Notes under the pieces: model-generated
Databases searched by the model: none
What the model was told of the DNA's origin: nothing
What the model saw: the letters and a program-made list of their open reading frames with translations, nothing else
Part shown: positions 38,269 to 52,467 of the stretch, piece after piece
Position numbering within the stretch: position 1 is the stretch's first letter
Layout of the letters: every line of letters starts with the position of its first letter
Position numbers and translations under genes: made by a program
Assembly: GCF_020164435.1 (NCBI RefSeq)
Contig: NZ_JAIUDQ010000022.1
Span: 1-64,000 of the forward strand
Source: Phyllobacterium lublinensis
GTDB lineage: Bacteria > Pseudomonadota > Alphaproteobacteria > Rhizobiales > Rhizobiaceae
Reading direction: 5' to 3'
Length of the DNA: 64,000 nt

Positions 38269-39750
38269 TCACCCAAATACCGTTTCATAGCGGTTCAGCC
38301 GCACAGGCTTCTCTCCGCCCGTCTCAAGGTAGAAGCGCCGCAACAGGTTCTTCGCGACCAGCATGCGATAGTCCGCCGAGGCCCGCCAATCGGTCAGTGG
38401 CGTATAATCATTGGAAAACGCCGCCACAGCCTTTTCAATCGCCCCCTCGTCCCAAACCGCGCCCGTCAGTGCCTGTTCGACCGCGCTGGCGCGCTTGGGC
38501 GTTCCGGCCATCCCGCCAAAGGCGACAACGGCGTGCTTGACCCTGCCTCGCTCATCGAGAACGACGCGGAATGCGCCGCAGACAGATGAAATGTCTTCAT
38601 CAAGCCGCTTGGATATCTTGTAGACTCCGTAAAGGTCATCGACATTGAGATAAGGGATATGGATCGCCTCGACGAATTCACCCGGTGCGCGATCCTGCCT
38701 TCCGTACGCGATGAAGTAGTTCTCGAGGCGCACCGATCGCCGGCTTTTGCCTTTGCGCAATATGACAACCGCACCAAGGCCGATCAAAGCGGGGGGTGTG
38801 TCGCCGATCGGCGAACCATTGGCGATATTGCCGCCGACGGTACCCATGTTGCGAACCTGCTCACCGCCAATGCGATTCCACAGTTCGGTCAACTGCGGAA
38901 AATGGCGAATGATGACCGGGTAAGCCTCCGTGTAGCTTACGCCTGCACCGAGTGTCAGGCCATCATCGCCTTCGGATATCAGCCGCAATTCATCCAGGTG
39001 CGACAGGAACACAACCGGCCCGATTTCGCGCATGAACTTCGTCACCCAAAGCCCGACATCGGTCGAGCCTGCGACGATCGTCGCACCCGGATCGCTTTCC
39101 AGGACCTCGGCGAAATCATCCACATCGGCGGGAAGCACGAGGCGCTGCCTGCCCTCGCCGATGACGACGCGCTTTCCATCCTTCAGCGCCTGCAATTGCG
39201 CGATAACCCGGGCTCGCTCCGATACAAGCGGATCCTTCTTCAGGTCGCCGATAGAAGACACGCTTTCCGCCGCCCTGATGATGGCAGCATAGCCTGTGCA
39301 ACGGCAAAGGTTGCCCTGGAGAGCTTTTTCGATTTGTTGGGTATCCGGCTGCGGATTCTGCATCCACAGACCATAGAGCGACATGACGAAGCCCGGCGTG
39401 CAAAACCCGCACTGCGAGGCATGGGTATCGACCATCGCCTGCTGAACGGGGTGCAGCGTTCCATCAGTTCCGGCCAGCGCTTCGACGGTAACGACGTGAC
39501 ACCCGTCGAGCGAGCCGACAAAGCGGATGCAGGCATTGACCGATTCATACTTGAGACTACCGTCGAGCAAGCGTCCGACGAGCACGGTGCAGGCACCACA
39601 ATCGCCCTCGGCACATCCCTCCTTGGTGCCGCGCAGTTTGCGGCTCAGCCGCAGAAAATCGAGAAGCGTTTCCGTCGGGGAAACATCCGTACGCTCGACA
39701 ACCTTGTCGTTGAGCAGAAAACGGATGCTGTTGCGTATTAGGGGTTCCAT
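38269..39750 (-). CDS. xdhA: Xanthine dehydrogenase, FeS/FAD small subunit
   Basis: Small subunit, 493 aa. N-terminal plant-type [2Fe-2S] site (CAEGDCGACTVLVG), second [2Fe-2S] site (CGFCTPGFVMSLY ... CRCTGY), then the FAD domain (IVAGSTDVGLWV; NMGTVGGNIANGSPIGD) and C-terminal CO-dehydrogenase flavoprotein domain. It passes electrons from the Moco site to NAD. Followed by xdhB after ten bases and preceded by uraH. Confidence 0.94.
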   Translation of the reverse strand: MEPLIRNSIRFLLNDKVVERTDVSPTETLLDFLRLSRKLRGTKEGCAEGDCGACTVLVGRLLDGSLKYESVNACIRFVGSLDGCHVVTVEALAGTDGTLHPVQQAMVDTHASQCGFCTPGFVMSLYGLWMQNPQPDTQQIEKALQGNLCRCTGYAAIIRAAESVSSIGDLKKDPLVSERARVIAQLQALKDGKRVVIGEGRQRLVLPADVDDFAEVLESDPGATIVAGSTDVGLWVTKFMREIGPVVFLSHLDELRLISEGDDGLTLGAGVSYTEAYPVIIRHFPQLTELWNRIGGEQVRNMGTVGGNIANGSPIGDTPPALIGLGAVVILRKGKSRRSVRLENYFIAYGRQDRAPGEFVEAIHIPYLNVDDLYGVYKISKRLDEDISSVCGAFRVVLDERGRVKHAVVAFGGMAGTPKRASAVEQALTGAVWDEGAIEKAVAAFSNDYTPLTDWRASADYRMLVAKNLLRRFYLETGGEKPVRLNRYETVFG

Positions 39751-46397: not shown

Positions 46398-47594
46398 TCA
46401 TTCGATTCGCCTCAGAATATCCGATGTGATCATTCTGACAATGTTTTCCGGCGTGAGCATGCCCGCGCTGGCGCGCTGGGCATCCGTGCCGGGTGGTAGA
46501 GCTTTAAAATCAGTTACCTTCGTTTCAACCGGGAAGAACGCCGGTCCGACGATCCTGACGTTGCGTGCTTCTGCCAGGTCCCCGGCATCCCGTTGTGCTG
46601 GTTCTCGTGCCGGAACCGCCGCGACCACGCCCGGGTCCGTGCCCTCCCCGGCAAGGACTGGTTTGTCCGATAACTGCGGATCGGAAACCAGTAGCTCCGG
46701 CTGGGATGCCGGTCTGGCGTGACAGCTGCACCCCGGCACTGCCCTGAGGCCAGCGATACGATAGTCGAACGCGTTCGGCAGCTCTCTGTAGGGCTTTTTG
46801 TCGGCAACAGAGATCATGTCGTCGGATTCCTGTTCAGGCACCGCATGAAAATACAGCTGCGCGTTTCCGTTTGGACACATGGCGGTGCAAGCGTTCTGAT
46901 CGCGGGCGAAATGCCGTGGCTGGCTCGAGAAGGAGATAGGGAAATAATAGCCGTCGCATGTGCGCACGCAAAGCGTGCGGTAACTGCCCTTCTTCACGAT
47001 TACATTGCCGTCGGGATCGGTTCCTTCATAGCTGGTTGCCAGCGTGTCGGGAGCAGACAGTCGGCTATTGCGCTGCACCAGGCGTTCGTCAGCCGAGTGT
47101 CTCGCTCGCGATAAGGGCGACGCATTTTCACCACCAAAGAGAACTTCGAAGAGAGACTTGCGGCGGATGTTCGAAGGCGGATCGTTGCGTGCGGACACGC
47201 TATCGCTGCAGCCGTTTGCGGACATCGATGCGAGGACCTGCTGGCGCGAAGGACCGCCTGTTCGATCACTGGCTGCCTTCAGCCTCGCCAGCCTGGCGGA
47301 CATTGTTGCAATGGACTGGGCATAGCGTCTGCACAGGGACGGGTCACCGCGCGAAAGGAGGAAGCCGCCACAGCCTTCCTTGCTGGCTTTTGCCCGCATC
47401 TGTTGCAACTGCAAAGACTGTTGCTGAACGTTCCGGCTGGACTTGACGCCTCTCCCGCTCGACACAGCTACAAGTTGCTTCTTCAACGAGTCGCAAATGT
47501 TTGAAGCGGCATGAACCTCGATGGGACCAACAGGTGAAACTGCCAGCAACAACCCAACCGCGACTGATACTCGAGGAACAAGAACAACGCGCAT
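46398..47594 (-). CDS. Exported DUF2865 domain protein
   Basis: Protein of unknown function, 398 aa, with a signal peptide (VVLVPRVSVAVGLLLAVSPVGPIEVHA). The central part RTLCVRTCDGYYFPISFSSQPRHFARDQNACTAMCPNGNAQLYFHAVP carries the spaced cysteines of DUF2865, common in Rhizobiales envelopes. The N-terminal part has a coiled-coil-like stretch (VQQQSLQLQQMRAKA). ATG at 47594 follows AAGGATG. No operon partner. Confidence 0.85.
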   Translation of the reverse strand: MRVVLVPRVSVAVGLLLAVSPVGPIEVHAASNICDSLKKQLVAVSSGRGVKSSRNVQQQSLQLQQMRAKASKEGCGGFLLSRGDPSLCRRYAQSIATMSARLARLKAASDRTGGPSRQQVLASMSANGCSDSVSARNDPPSNIRRKSLFEVLFGGENASPLSRARHSADERLVQRNSRLSAPDTLATSYEGTDPDGNVIVKKGSYRTLCVRTCDGYYFPISFSSQPRHFARDQNACTAMCPNGNAQLYFHAVPEQESDDMISVADKKPYRELPNAFDYRIAGLRAVPGCSCHARPASQPELLVSDPQLSDKPVLAGEGTDPGVVAAVPAREPAQRDAGDLAEARNVRIVGPAFFPVETKVTDFKALPPGTDAQRASAGMLTPENIVRMITSDILRRIE

Positions 47595-48175
47595 GACACA
47601 GCATCCTTCAAGAGGTTGCCTTAGGATGGAATAGGGGAAAATGTTACCTGTCAAAATCCTGCCAGCGTCTGGCGAAGAGCCCCTCCGATCCTAAGATTAA
47701 TCCATTTCTTGAAAGATGTAATCCTAATTCATTATTTATCACATTAATGTCAACATCTGATCGCTCACGCAATATTTGCGAGAATATGATTTCTAGATGG
47801 AATTGTAGCCGACTACATCCACTTAAACTTTATCAACAATTACTATATCGTATTCGACAAGAAAAGAATTTTTCAACATTGCATGGCATAACGTTATAAC
47901 AAAAAATAATTAGTACTGCAATTTATTCGAATATAACTCAGAACTGCCAAGTATTCATGCCAGAAACTGATACCATGATCATTTATAAGTTTCGGTTTTT
48001 GCTTCGACAGGCTCCGAAACGGTACCGTGTCAGCACTTCCTAGAACCGTACAACCCACGGCCGCAACGTTACTCCACGCTCCTCTGGCGATCGGATCATG
48101 ACCCCAACATTTTTCTCGACCCCGTGTCGGGATTGGCGATACTGGATCGTCATCATGTGAAGAGGATCGATCCGG
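47595..48175. other. Gene-free AT-rich intergenic stretch
   Basis: 581 bases without a supported gene. From about 47690 to 47990 the base composition is strikingly A+T-rich compared with everything around. A ten-base palindrome ACGGTACCGT lies at 48019-48028, and the ECF-type promoter of the next operon is at 48125-48151. A 170-codon minus frame over 47894-48406 is an antisense shadow of the YCII gene. Confidence 0.6.
48125..48151 (+). promoter_or_regulatory. ECF-type promoter P1 (TGTCGG-N17-CGTC)
   Basis: -35 TGTCGG (48125-48130), 17-base spacer, -10 CGTC (48148-48151), 24 bases before the YCII start. An identical pattern with the same spacing precedes the AHSA1 gene. It fits the ECF42 target motif as I recall it (TGTCGA in -35; CGTC or CGAC in -10), so the sigma operon is probably autoregulated. 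Confidence 0.65.
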
Positions 48176-48550
48176 ATGCTTTACGCCATACTTTGTTATA
48201 ATCCCGAAGACGTCGTTGGCTCCTGGAGCAAGGAGGAGGATGACGCCGTGATGGCGCGCCTTGGTGTTGTCCAGGACAAGCTGCGGGAACAGGGGAGGCT
48301 CGGTCCCGTCGCTCGGCTGCTTCCGACGACTGCAGCAACGACACTGCGCAAAGGCCGCGACGAACCTATCATCATTGACGGTCCCTTCGCCGAAACCAAG
48401 GAACAACTCCTCGGATTCTACGTGGTCGAATGCGCATCGCTCGACGAAGCCATAGAAACCGCGCGTGACCTCGCGCGAGCCAACCCCGGCACAGGTTCCT
48501 ATGAAATCAGGCCTGTAGGGATATTCAGGCCTGGATCGGACCTTTCATGA
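48176..48550 (+). CDS. YCII-related DGPF protein (ECF42 partner)
   Basis: Small dimeric ferredoxin-like-fold protein, 124 aa, of the YCII/DGPF family. The name-giving motif is in IIIDGPFAETKEQLLGFYVVE near residues 64-84. Such proteins are the constant genetic partner of ECF42 sigma factors and their role (sensor, enzyme or target) is not settled. Its stop overlaps the sigma factor ATG by four bases. Confidence 0.9.
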   Translation: MLYAILCYNPEDVVGSWSKEEDDAVMARLGVVQDKLREQGRLGPVARLLPTTAATTLRKGRDEPIIIDGPFAETKEQLLGFYVVECASLDEAIETARDLARANPGTGSYEIRPVGIFRPGSDLS

Positions 48551-49788
48551 GCGAAGCCGCCTGGATCGAAGCAGCCCTTACAGCCGCCCGCCCCCAGGCA
48601 GTTGGCGCACTGCTTCGTTACTTCCGCAATCTTGATATTGCCGAGGAAGCGTTTCAGGAGGCATGCCTGCGCGCGCTGAAGAACTGGCCAAAGAACGGTC
48701 CGCCCCGGGATCCGACTGCCTGGCTGATCTTCGTCGGTCGCAACAGTGCGATCGATGGGGTCCGACGCCAGGCCAAGCAGCAACCGCTGCCTCCGGAAGA
48801 GATATTGTCTGATCTGGAGGACACCGAAACCGCCATCGCCGAGAAAATCGACGGCTCCGATTATCGAGACGACATCCTGCGGCTGCTGTTCATTTGCTGT
48901 CATCCCGACCTTCCGGCCACGCAACAGATCCCTCTGGCACTGCGTATCGTATCGGGTCTTTCCGTAAGGCAGATCGCGCGCGCCTTTCTCGTCGGCGAGA
49001 GCGCCATGGAACAGCGCATAACGCGGGCAAAAAGCCGAATCGGGGCTGGGGGTATCCCGTTCGAGACACCCGATGCCATCGAACGGGCGGAGCGTCTCGC
49101 CACTGTGGCAGCCATGATTTATCTGATCTTCAACGAAGGATACTCCGCCGGCCCCGCCGAGCAGCAAGCCCGTTTTCCCCTGTGCGAAGAGGCCATAAGA
49201 CTGGCAAGGCTGCTGCTGCGCATCTTTCCGACAGAGCCCGAAATAATGGGGTTGGCCGCGCTTTTGCTGCTGCAGAATGCGCGCGCCGGCGCGCGCTTTA
49301 ATGCTGAAGGCTCGGTCATATTGCTTGAGGACCAGGACCGGAGCCTGTGGAACCGGAAGATGATCAATGAGGGGCTTGCCCTGGTCGACAAGGCCGTCCG
49401 TCACAGGAGACCCGGACCCTACCAGATCCAGGCGGCCATCGCAGCGCTCCATGCACGGGCGGTGCGCGCGGAAGATACGGACTGGTTGGAAATCGATCTG
49501 CTCTACGCGGCACTGGAACGGTTGACGCCATCGCCGGTGATCACGCTCAACCGCGCCGTCGCGGTGGCGAAGGTGCGAGGGCCCGCGGAAGCTCTGGCCC
49601 TGATCGAGCCACTGGAAGACCGGCTCTCCGGCTATTTCCATTATTTCGGCGTCAAAGGCGGCCTGCTGATGAAAATCGGCCGTACGTGCGAAGCGCGCGA
49701 AGCATTCAACCGGGCCATTTCCCTTGCCAATACAGCTGCCGAAGCGGCCCATATTCGCATGCATCTCGACAGCCTGGGCCGGGGCTGA
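48547..49788 (+). CDS. ECF RNA polymerase sigma factor, ECF42 group
   Basis: Sigma-70 family ECF factor, 413 aa, about twice the usual ECF length. Residues 10-80 are sigma region 2 (VGALLRYFRNLDIAEEAFQEACLRALKNWP; PTAWLIFVGRNSAIDGVRR), residues 115-165 region 4 (IPLALRIVSGLSVRQIARAFLVGESAMEQRITRAKSRI), and the long C-terminal part is the TPR-like extension of ECF42 (LIFNEGYSAG; PGPYQIQAAIAALHA; LNRAVAVAKVRGPAEAL; ARTCEAREAFNRAI). No anti-sigma factor is near; the extension is thought to control activity. Confidence 0.92.
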   Translation: MSEAAWIEAALTAARPQAVGALLRYFRNLDIAEEAFQEACLRALKNWPKNGPPRDPTAWLIFVGRNSAIDGVRRQAKQQPLPPEEILSDLEDTETAIAEKIDGSDYRDDILRLLFICCHPDLPATQQIPLALRIVSGLSVRQIARAFLVGESAMEQRITRAKSRIGAGGIPFETPDAIERAERLATVAAMIYLIFNEGYSAGPAEQQARFPLCEEAIRLARLLLRIFPTEPEIMGLAALLLLQNARAGARFNAEGSVILLEDQDRSLWNRKMINEGLALVDKAVRHRRPGPYQIQAAIAALHARAVRAEDTDWLEIDLLYAALERLTPSPVITLNRAVAVAKVRGPAEALALIEPLEDRLSGYFHYFGVKGGLLMKIGRTCEAREAFNRAISLANTAAEAAHIRMHLDSLGRG

Positions 49789-49829
49789 ACTTCGGCCAAC
49801 CCGTTCTCTTCGAAAAAAATCAGTTGCTG

Positions 49830-49856
49830 TGTCGGATCGCGGGCCACCCGTTCGTC
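49830..49856 (+). promoter_or_regulatory. ECF-type promoter P2 (TGTCGG-N17-CGTC)
   Basis: -35 TGTCGG (49830-49835), 17-base spacer, -10 CGTC (49853-49856), 34 bases before the AHSA1 start. Sequence and spacing match P1 at 48125-48151 exactly in the fixed bases, with unrelated spacers. Confidence 0.65.
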
Positions 49857-49890
49857 CTTGGATCGGAAACCATCAAACCCGGAGCTGATC

Positions 49891-50367
49891 ATGAGCCATG
49901 ACATAACCCCGAATTCCGACCGCGATCTGGTCCTTACCCGCATCATCGATGCGCCACGCGAACACGTGTTCAAGGCATGGACCAATGCCGAACTGTTAAA
50001 GCAATGGTTTGCACCGCTGCCCTATACGACGCCGCATGCGGAACTCGACGTGCGCGTCGGGGGCGCTAATCTCATCGTCATGCGGGGACCGGACGGCACA
50101 GAATTCCCCAACCGCGGAGTCTACCTCGAGGTGGTAGAGAACGAGCGGCTCGTGGTTACGGATGCTTTCACGGCCGCTTGGGAGCCTTCCGAGAAACCGT
50201 TCATGACGGTAATCCTGACGTTCGAGGAACATGAGGGAAAAACCAGGTATAAGGCGCTGGTGCGTCATTGGACCGCCGCTGATCGCGAAGCTCACGAGAA
50301 CATGGGTTTCCACGAAGGTTGGGGCAAATGCACCGATCAACTCGAAGCCCTCGCTTCGAAGCTCTGA
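49891..50367 (+). CDS. SRPBCC / AHSA1-domain protein
   Basis: START-like (SRPBCC) domain protein of the AHSA1 (activator of Hsp90 ATPase homologue 1-like) family, 158 aa. Start LVLTRIIDAPREHVFKAWTNAELLKQWFAP and the late HENMGFHEGWGKCTDQLEALA are characteristic. Such genes often sit next to ECF42 or YCII genes; function is a putative ligand-binding or stress protein. ATG at 49891. Thirteen bases before the SnoaL-like gene. Confidence 0.87.
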   Translation: MSHDITPNSDRDLVLTRIIDAPREHVFKAWTNAELLKQWFAPLPYTTPHAELDVRVGGANLIVMRGPDGTEFPNRGVYLEVVENERLVVTDAFTAAWEPSEKPFMTVILTFEEHEGKTRYKALVRHWTAADREAHENMGFHEGWGKCTDQLEALASKL

Positions 50368-50380
50368 CAGGGAGATTGCC

Positions 50381-50818
50381 ATGTCTGACACGAATCTCAA
50401 TGAGCAAGCCGCCGTTACGGCGGTTATTGCAGACTGGTCGAACGCAATCGGCGCAAAGGAGGCCGCGAGGGTCAAGTCACATCTGACAGACGATGTGGTG
50501 CAGTTCACCCTCGCGCCACCATTGCAGCACAAGGGCAAGGAGGCCGAAGACCTGCAGGCGTGGTTTGCCACGTGGAAGGGCCCGATCGGCGCTGAGGCGC
50601 GAGACGTCGAGGTAAGCGTTGGCGGTGATGTCGCCTTTGCACGGAGCCTCGTGCGCATGACTGGCACCAAGACAGACGGGTACGAAGTGGATCTCTGGTT
50701 CCGGCAGACCCTCGGACTGGTCCGGCAAGCTGGCACATGGCGCATTGCGCACGCACACACCTCCGTGCCGTTCTACATGGACGGCAGCTTCAAGGGTGCG
50801 TTCGATCTCACTCCATGA
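50381..50818 (+). CDS. SnoaL-like / DUF4440 (NTF2-fold) protein
   Basis: Cone-fold NTF2-like protein, 145 aa, of the SnoaL/ketosteroid-isomerase group. AAVTAVIADWSNAIGAKEAARVKSHLTDDVVQFTLAPPLQHKG and the C-terminal GTWRIAHAHTSVPFYMDG are typical. GGGAG precedes the ATG. Probably co-transcribed with the AHSA1 gene from P2. Enzymatic role unknown. Confidence 0.86.
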   Translation: MSDTNLNEQAAVTAVIADWSNAIGAKEAARVKSHLTDDVVQFTLAPPLQHKGKEAEDLQAWFATWKGPIGAEARDVEVSVGGDVAFARSLVRMTGTKTDGYEVDLWFRQTLGLVRQAGTWRIAHAHTSVPFYMDGSFKGAFDLTP

Positions 50819-50838: not shown

Positions 50839-52467
50839 TCAGGACATGTCGATCGGCGTCTTGTGAGCAGCGATGTCGTGCGGCAGGATTGTCTGCCGCT
50901 CGATCATGCGATGCACCCTCGGATCGGCAGCGCCGCGATGGAGCTCGCGGATGCGGTCCCCGATCGCCGCATCGGCCTGCGTCCTGCGTTGATTGTGGCG
51001 CACATATTCGACCCAGGTGGGCGTGTGATAGCTCTCGGTCCACATCTCGGGATTTTCGAGGTCGCGCATCAGCGCCCAGTGCCCTGCCCCGTCTCGGATG
51101 CGCACACGCCGCCTGGCAGCCATGGCCGCTAGGAATTCCGGCACGTCCTCCTCGGCGATGATGTAATCGATCATGATGACGATCGGTCCGCTTCGCGGCT
51201 TGAGGTCCAGCGCGAGAAGCGGCTCGCTGAACCGGTTGAGCGGATCGAGGTTGAGCGACTTGAATTCGGGAAGCGCGTAACGGAGCCCGATCACGGCACC
51301 AAGAAGCATGACTGCGCTTGAGGCGAATAATGCCTTATCCGCACCATATTCGGCAGCCGCCAGACCCCACATCCAGCTGCCTCCCGCAATGCCGCCAAAG
51401 GTCGTTGTTTGATACAGCGACAAGGCACGCCCAACCACCCAGCGGGGCGTGGAAAGTTGTACCGTCATGTTGAACAGGGACAGGGCAAGCACCCAGCAGG
51501 CACCGGCAGAAAGCAAAGCGGCATTCGTTGGCCAGACGTTCCGGCTCAACCCCGCGATCGTGGCGCTGACGGCAAAGCCGGCAAAGGCGATCCGCACAAT
51601 AGCTTCGCTGGACAGGAAATCCCGCAGCCGCGCACTCAGAAGGGCACCGCCTATGGCGCCGATACCGAATGAACCAAGCATGGTGCCATAGACAAACGGT
51701 CCGCCCCTGACAAGGTCGCGTGCCACCAGGGGCAGGAGCGCCAGCACCGCGCTGGCGGAAAGTCCGAACACGAAACCGCGAAAGATGACTTTGCCAATAT
51801 TTGGCGACATCGCCACGTAACGCAGCCCGGCCGATACAGCACGTCCAAGCGTTTCGCGCGGCAAGGGGTTGGGGTCGTATTTGGGCTGCCAGCGAAGCAG
51901 GGCGAAGATCAGAGCCAAATAACTGACTGCATTGACTGCGAAGGCTGCCGCCGCTCCCGCCACGGCGACAATCAGGCCGCCGATGGCCGGTCCAACGCTG
52001 CGGGTAATATTGAAACCCATGCTGTTGAGCGCCACGGCCCCCGGCAGATCGTCGCGTGGAACCATGTCACCGACAGAGGCCTGCCATGAGGGGTTGTTCA
52101 ATGCCGTTCCACAACCGAGGAGAAAGGTGAAGCCAAGGAGAAGCCAGGGCGTGACGAGGCCCAAATAGGCGAAGAGCGACAGCAACACCGAGACGGACAG
52201 CATGAAGAACTGCGCGACCAGCATGACCCTGCGCCGGTTGAAATTGTCCGCCAGCGCGCCCGAGAGGAGGGAAAATAGCATGATGGGCAGGGCGGTGGAG
52301 GCCTGCACCAGGGCGACCATGTCGACCGAGTTGGAAATGGTCGTCATCATCCAGGCCGCCCCAACCGCCTGGATCAGAGAACCGAAATTCGAAGAAAGGC
52401 TTGCAATCCAGATGGTGCGGAAGGTCTCGTGCCTGAATGGAGCGAGTGGCGATTTTCGGTCTGTCAC
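50839..52467 (-). CDS. MFS exporter (EntS-like) with C-terminal ABM-like domain
   Basis: Major facilitator of the MFS_3 (EntS/transmembrane secretion effector) group, 542 aa. Twelve hydrophobic segments occupy residues 15-400, with NFNRRRVMLVAQF as the loop 2-3 motif. Residues 425-530 form an extra soluble domain (VIMIDYIIAEEDVPEFLAAMAARRRVRIRDGAGHWALMRD) that resembles a dimeric ABM fold. Start is GTG at 52467 after AGGAAAG. It is convergent with the SnoaL gene and not preceded by the ECF-type motif. Confidence 0.86.
   Translation of the reverse strand: MTDRKSPLAPFRHETFRTIWIASLSSNFGSLIQAVGAAWMMTTISNSVDMVALVQASTALPIMLFSLLSGALADNFNRRRVMLVAQFFMLSVSVLLSLFAYLGLVTPWLLLGFTFLLGCGTALNNPSWQASVGDMVPRDDLPGAVALNSMGFNITRSVGPAIGGLIVAVAGAAAAFAVNAVSYLALIFALLRWQPKYDPNPLPRETLGRAVSAGLRYVAMSPNIGKVIFRGFVFGLSASAVLALLPLVARDLVRGGPFVYGTMLGSFGIGAIGGALLSARLRDFLSSEAIVRIAFAGFAVSATIAGLSRNVWPTNAALLSAGACWVLALSLFNMTVQLSTPRWVVGRALSLYQTTTFGGIAGGSWMWGLAAAEYGADKALFASSAVMLLGAVIGLRYALPEFKSLNLDPLNRFSEPLLALDLKPRSGPIVIMIDYIIAEEDVPEFLAAMAARRRVRIRDGAGHWALMRDLENPEMWTESYHTPTWVEYVRHNQRRTQADAAIGDRIRELHRGAADPRVHRMIERQTILPHDIAAHKTPIDMS

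Follow-up and report, generated by a model that had tools for sequence, protein, structure and literature searches.

Gene content of the locus

ECF42 sigma factors are widespread. In this study, the locus of one such factor and its promoters were analysed in a 64-kb window (the whole stretch of DNA under study), which is contig C15 of a 4.53-Mb assembly of a genome that is 88% complete. The nearest relatives of the sigma factor belong to Phyllobacterium (93% identity). Two short operons lie within 48176-50818, the first holding the genes for a YCII protein and the sigma factor, the second those for an AHSA1 protein and a SnoaL_3 protein:

48176..48550 (+), YCII-domain protein, 124 aa (PF03795, E 2.3e-20), with a DGPF motif at residue 68
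48547..49788 (+), ECF42-type sigma factor, 413 aa, with regions 2 and 4, DUF6596 and a helical C-terminal extension
49891..50367 (+), AHSA1/SRPBCC-fold protein, 158 aa (PF08327, E 1.3e-34)
50381..50818 (+), SnoaL_3-domain protein, 145 aa (PF13474, E 1.6e-18)

The assignment of the sigma factor to the ECF42 type, made in an earlier annotation of the same DNA (hereafter the original prediction), is borne out by its Pfam matches (Sigma70_r2, E 2.9e-12; Sigma70_r4_2, E 2.6e-8), by DUF6596 at residues 183-283, which is the only match to this domain in the genome, and by the adjoining YCII gene, which overlaps the sigma gene by 4 bases in the same operon. The YCII protein has a relative of solved structure, PA1349 (1s7i, E 8.3e-12). 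In a predicted model of the sigma factor, residues 270-412 form helices. Pfam recognised no tetratricopeptide repeat (TPR) model in this extension at E 1e-3; the top matches of a Foldseek search with the model were mostly TPR proteins (E from 3.8e-4), at a TM-score by query of about 0.35 and a root-mean-square deviation of 11-25 Å. A PDB sequence search with the sigma factor was uninformative, its top match reaching only E 0.026.

As the original prediction also held, no anti-sigma gene adjoins the sigma gene: the YCII-sigma operon is followed by the AHSA1 and SnoaL_3 genes and an opposite-strand MFS_3 gene, and the upstream open reading frame (ORF) at 46398-47654 was not annotated. The MFS_3 transporter gene (50839-52467, minus strand, E 8.8e-224) is convergent with the second operon and also occurs in 9 of the loci of 16 close relatives.

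Promoters P1 and P2

Each operon is preceded by one copy of TGTCGG-N17-CGTC, at exactly the places that had been proposed. The predicted distance of 24-34 bases to a start codon was measured as 24 bases for P1 (ATG of the YCII gene at 48176) and 34 bases for P2 (ATG of the AHSA1 gene at 49891). The promoters and the tracts that accompany them are:

48106..48115 (+), A/T-rich tract upstream of P1, 8/10 A/T, kept at the same distance in relatives
48125..48151 (+), P1, TGTCGG-N17-CGTC, before the YCII-sigma operon; 17.5 bits with profile R1 (see below)
49811..49820 (+), A/T-rich tract upstream of P2, 8/10 A/T
49830..49856 (+), P2, TGTCGG-N17-CGTC followed by CTTGGA, before the AHSA1-SnoaL operon; 31.2 bits with profile R1

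The intergenic region upstream of P1 (47655-48090) is AT-rich, with a G+C content of 0.39 (0.31 at 47700-47960), compared with a window value of 0.59.

The rarity of two such motifs in one window, on which the original prediction leaned, is a weak argument. About 0.80 matches with a spacer of 16 to 18 bases (N16-18) are expected per window by chance, the window holds a third match (N18, 39493-39520, minus strand), and 8 of 100 window shuffles reached three. The genome scan that had been suggested gave 79 N16-18 matches versus 49 for a reversed control, and this count was discarded as uninformative. Since 14 of the 79 are exact N17 copies in 4.53 Mb, the bare motif stands near chance. These 14 copies, eight of them inside ORFs of 169 aa or more (the ORF being doubtful for L128), and the shuffles would allow P1 and P2 to be chance matches. 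This reading was rejected on account of conservation in relatives.

Among the loci of 80 sigma relatives, 69 carry the exact core in the position of P1 and 34 in that of P2; 43 more sites lie elsewhere in those loci. A tract of at least seven A/T bases in ten at -19 to -10 (offsets here and below are counted from the first T of TGTCGG) accompanies 66/69 of the P1 sites, 28/34 of the P2 sites and 37/43 of the distal ones, compared with 4% of random 10-mers from the same loci. Among the 16 close loci, P2 is exact in 10 of the 11 with an intact AHSA1 or SnoaL gene and has one mismatch in the eleventh (L066); it is missing from all five without an intact copy of either, one of which (L049) retains a 30-residue AHSA1 remnant. 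The context of P1 and P2, that is their conservation, the A/T tract and the way P2 goes with its genes, exceeds chance though the bare motif does not. The same form is found in three promoters described for the ECF42 sigma factor RpoE10 of Sinorhizobium meliloti, those of SMb20475, SMc01151 (a YCII gene) and SMc01149 (PMC6180224), which agrees with the claim that the motif is the promoter of this sigma factor. We regard a chance origin of P1 and P2 as negligibly probable. That P2 goes with its genes in close loci also supports the predicted control of the AHSA1-SnoaL pair by the sigma factor.

In some Phyllobacterium loci, P2 stands directly before SnoaL with no AHSA1 match (L039, L041 and L043, as against L037, L040, L044 and L053), suggesting that genes come and go while the promoter is kept. 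A CCTTGG-like stretch from CGTC onward is common to P2 and the distal sites of relatives; the CTTGG stretch after the -10 element is absent at P1.

Further sites in the genome

A promoter profile, R1, was trained on 51 P2 and distal sites of relatives, which remained after near-copies had been removed from 65 sites having the A/T tract; the genome under study was excluded. When 150 of its 2113 candidate sites were scored, 13 matches at E up to 10 were obtained. The best was a site on contig C13 (5.1e-9), followed by P2 (6.5e-7) and by sites on C8 (position 101741, 3.1e-5), C44 (2.7e-4) and C1 (6.4e-4); lower ranks were held by another C8 site (position 97798, 0.009), P1 (0.015) and a next match at 0.245. 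The score of P2 is partly circular because P2 sites of close relatives are in the training set; the scores of the far sites are not, because no training site is more than 5 kb from a sigma gene.

The four strong far sites are among the 14 exact N17 copies and precede a PhnB gene by 37 bases (C13), a PhnB/Glyoxalase gene by 32 bases (C44), a DoxX_2 gene by 51 bases (C8) and an AHSA1 gene by 39 bases (C1). The A/T tract is present at three of them. A DUF6958 gene on C8 (L136:1171-1464, minus strand), about 4 kb from the DoxX_2 site, begins 37 bases after the variant TGTAGG-N17-CGTCCTTGG and is probably a regulon member with a weaker site.

None of the eight dropped N17 sites, those inside the ORFs of 169 aa or more, was among the 13 matches, and R1 gave no match in the loci of the YCII paralogues (L129 and L130). 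Neither ORF cover nor the A/T tract alone sorts the sites: mechanical ORFs also cover the retained sites L117, L118 and L127, and the tract is lacking at the retained L127, the AHSA1 site on C1 (4/10 A/T at -19 to -10), yet present at the dropped in-ORF site L120 (7/10). This last comparison weighs against the regulon proposed here.

The regulon predicted from these sites is dispersed, with four more strong sites, two before PhnB/VOC genes, one before an AHSA1 gene and one before a DoxX_2 gene. The original prediction had described it as self-contained, the sigma factor driving P1 and P2 only. This would agree with the position of these two conserved promoters on either side of the sigma gene, and the far sites are themselves sequence predictions. 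The far sites, however, score like P2-type sites with a profile that excludes this genome and precede the same gene families, and in S. meliloti the SMb20475-74 operon, which by its name lies on another replicon, is reported to respond to RpoE10 (PMC6180224). We consider a self-contained regulon highly improbable, and as a description of this locus it was rejected on account of the four far sites and the kinds of gene that follow them.

Distribution of the regulon in the family

Sites were also sought in 61 family genomes, the present one included, at an R1 cut-off of E 1e-3 and with DUF6596 as the marker of the sigma factor; for most genomes 93 candidates were scored, so that site counts are lower bounds. 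DUF6596 occurs in 30/61 genomes and an R1 site in at least 23/61. Sites were found in at least 22 of the 30 genomes with the sigma factor versus 1 of the 31 without it (Fisher p 5e-9), and the lone site-bearing genome without it (G043) is 76% complete. Two points count against this association: eight of the 30 genomes with the sigma factor gave no site at this cut-off, many of their sigma factors being from other clades, and some family genomes also supplied training loci (two were recognised). The sigma-free genomes are the cleaner control.

Outside the present genome, 60 sites were obtained, 56 with the exact core and 58 with a first gene, at a median distance of 37 bases. The first genes, which were chosen by length among ATG frames and include a few spurious ones, belong by Pfam to AHSA1 (15), Glyoxalase (9), DUF1428 (7), 3-dmu-9_3-mt (5), YCII (5), RibD_C (4) and alpha/beta-hydrolase (3), with one each of DoxX, DoxX_2, SnoaL_3, DUF899, SDR and BNR. 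In the 80 relatives, a first gene follows 73 of the 77 non-P1 sites, and these genes include AHSA1 (32), Glyoxalase (15), DoxX_2 (6), YCII (4), SnoaL_3 (4), RibD_C (3) and Polyketide_cyc2 (3). Such targets, namely AHSA1, VOC, DUF1428, YCII, RibD_C, alpha/beta-hydrolase, DoxX and SnoaL, would be in keeping with a response to small molecules that are reactive or hydrophobic.

Several family genomes have a second DUF6596 sigma factor, and at its locus TGTCGA-N17-CGAC or -CGTC is found at a variable distance. Other DUF6596 loci with one of these forms in place of TGTCGG-N17-CGTC are L209, L211, L213, L214, L216, L218, L236, L238 and L243. In a tree of 58 sigma factors, 36 of the 38 TGTCGG rows fall into one clade (39 rows, three of them without a site; support 100/100), which includes the sigma factor of the window, and the nine TGTCGA rows all lie outside it. 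The two stray TGTCGG rows (L087 and L088) were disregarded together with L056, as their very long branch was judged to reflect a wrong reading frame. By the filter used, G029, G040, G051 and G059 each hold one sigma factor of either type. On this tree, the two promoter forms go with different sigma clades.

An additional element within P1

The spacers of P1 and P2 had been called unrelated. They do differ, and that of P1 is not neutral, as it includes GATACT (48138-48143), part of a conserved element found only in P1:

48116..48143 (+), putative housekeeping-type promoter embedded in and overlapping P1: TCGACC (48116-48121), N16, GATACT (48138-48143)

TA.T occupies +15 to +18 in 54/70 P1 sites (the window included), in 0/35 P2 sites and in 0/43 distal sites; at any other spacer offset it occurs in no more than two sites. 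It was likewise found in 0/52 other exact-core targets of newly sampled family genomes. A box with at least 4 of the 5 bases of TTGAC lies at N16-19 in 36/70 P1 sites versus 7/78 others. As the loci are related, the counts of TA.T represent fewer independent events. The P1 core is not exact in 11/80 relatives, two of which (L056 and L084) have no recognisable core; TA.T is retained in seven of these 11, and each of the seven loci has an exact core at another place.

We infer that TA.T serves as the -10 box of a housekeeping-type promoter that overlaps the ECF42 promoter. P1 would then be a hybrid, in which an ECF42 promoter lies over a housekeeping-type promoter that sets a basal level, with weak and dispensable autoregulation; the chances for and against this seem to us evenly balanced. 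The alphaproteobacterial housekeeping consensus is given as CTTGAC-N17-CTATAT (PMC2873474), and the boxes of P1 fit it only in part, the -35-like box being the weaker. A further indication comes from S. meliloti, where the sequence given for the SMc01151 promoter stops at the last C of CGTC (+26), while those of the other two RpoE10 promoters stop at +35 (PMC6180224). We take these ends as transcription starts, because the SMc01149 sequence ends in a lower-case start letter and because, according to the paper, motif and start overlap in SMc01151. Transcription from a -10 box at +13 to +18 would begin at +26, which speaks for the hybrid.

Several observations weigh against a housekeeping promoter at this place. 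The TA.T pattern was noticed after looking, and it occurs in only 5/15 YCII promoters of newly sampled genera, which confines the element to some lineages. The window hexamers match 8/12 bases of the E. coli consensus, a partial fit; a strict consensus promoter scan did not flag the second element of P1; and the SMc01151 promoter as listed lacks TA.T (PMC6180224). Instead of forming a promoter box, TA.T could bind a different regulator or reflect a preference that the ECF42 holoenzyme itself has at P1 alone. The silence of the strict scan would be in keeping with this, as would the unevenness of the -35-like box, which reaches 4 of 5 bases of TTGAC in just over half of the P1 sites and in none of the Shinella sites. 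The retention of TA.T where the ECF42 core is not exact counts against the holoenzyme-preference form, and the end of the SMc01151 sequence fits a -10 box even though S. meliloti has no TA.T there. We give this explanation somewhat less than an even chance.

The claim that the sigma factor drives its own operon is less certain than the original prediction made it. P1 scores 17.5 bits against 31.2 for P2 with a profile trained on P2-type and distal sites only, it lacks CTTGG and contains the second element, and its core is not exact in the 11 relatives mentioned. In addition, SMc01151 is reported as unchanged on RpoE10 overexpression, a condition under which the SMc01149-48 and SMb20475-74 operons rose two-fold or more (PMC6180224).

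Discussion

This is a known kind of ECF42 locus whose regulon is wider than first claimed and whose own promoter, P1, is possibly a hybrid. It is likely that the window holds the central locus of a regulon with dispersed targets that is governed by an ECF42 sigma factor, and that this factor uses TGTCGG-N17-CGTC promoters. The sigma factor may be controlled through its C-terminal extension, and perhaps through its YCII partner, instead of an anti-sigma factor, as proposed in reviews of the group. It would recognise TGTCGG-N17-CGTC, mostly with the upstream A/T tract, and transcription would start about nine bases after CGTC, if the promoters listed for S. meliloti are a guide. The AHSA1-SnoaL operon would be transcribed from P2, and elsewhere in the genome two PhnB/VOC genes, one AHSA1 gene, one DoxX_2 gene and probably the DUF6958 gene would be further targets. 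Basal expression of the YCII-sigma operon may come from the embedded housekeeping-type promoter. The dispersed genes encode small proteins whose ligands or substrates may be small compounds of a hydrophobic or reactive kind.

A more general proposal can be offered tentatively, and we hold it to be slightly less probable than its opposite. In one large rhizobial ECF42 clade, the sigma factor's own promoter may be a conserved hybrid with a housekeeping -10 box inside the ECF42 spacer, at which two holoenzymes would compete with starts about nine bases apart. Selection for the housekeeping part would be no weaker than for the ECF42 part, so that autoregulation could be lost while the dispersed regulon for handling small molecules remains, and sister clades would avoid cross-talk through one-base changes (TGTCGG/CGTC versus TGTCGA with CGAC or CGTC). 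In a limited literature search, we met no published report of a second conserved element in the own promoter of an ECF42 sigma factor. The P1 element could explain why the own operon did not rise on RpoE10 overexpression in S. meliloti. Applied genome by genome, the promoter profile may yield predicted regulons for the ECF42 group, and the recurring families (AHSA1, VOC/PhnB, DUF1428, YCII, RibD_C, DoxX, SnoaL and hydrolase) narrow the guess as to its stimulus.

Among known systems, S. meliloti RpoE10, as described in PMC6180224, resembles the window in having a YCII gene before the sigma gene, TGTCGG-N17-CGTC promoters and a dispersed regulon. Its regulon also contains genes with hydrophobic-ligand and glyoxalase-like domains, like the one predicted here (PMC6180224). 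Six genes are reported to have responded in S. meliloti, four of them two-fold or more (PMC6180224), whereas the targets here are predicted from sequence; unlike the S. meliloti system as described, further target families (DoxX_2, SnoaL and DUF6958) are predicted here, and P1 contains TA.T.

In ECF41 sigma factors, control lies with a C-terminal extension and no anti-sigma factor is involved, as proposed here; in that group, however, a SnoaL extension is fused to the sigma factor, whereas here SnoaL is a separate target gene and the sigma factor has DUF6596 and a helical extension. The ECF42 promoter consensus of Streptomyces venezuelae is reportedly TGTCGA, in work by Liu and colleagues from 2018, one base off the TGTCGG found here, and the A form occurs at other ECF42 clades. 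The ECF42 consensus invoked by the original prediction fits S. meliloti. The target set predicted here is also wider than the DGPF gene. The ECF42 sigma factors of S. venezuelae (Sven_0747 and others) are described as having a TPR-type C-terminal extension and a YCII/DGPF partner gene (PMC8999054); the sigma factor here likewise has a YCII/DGPF partner gene and a C-terminal extension, which is helical in the predicted model.

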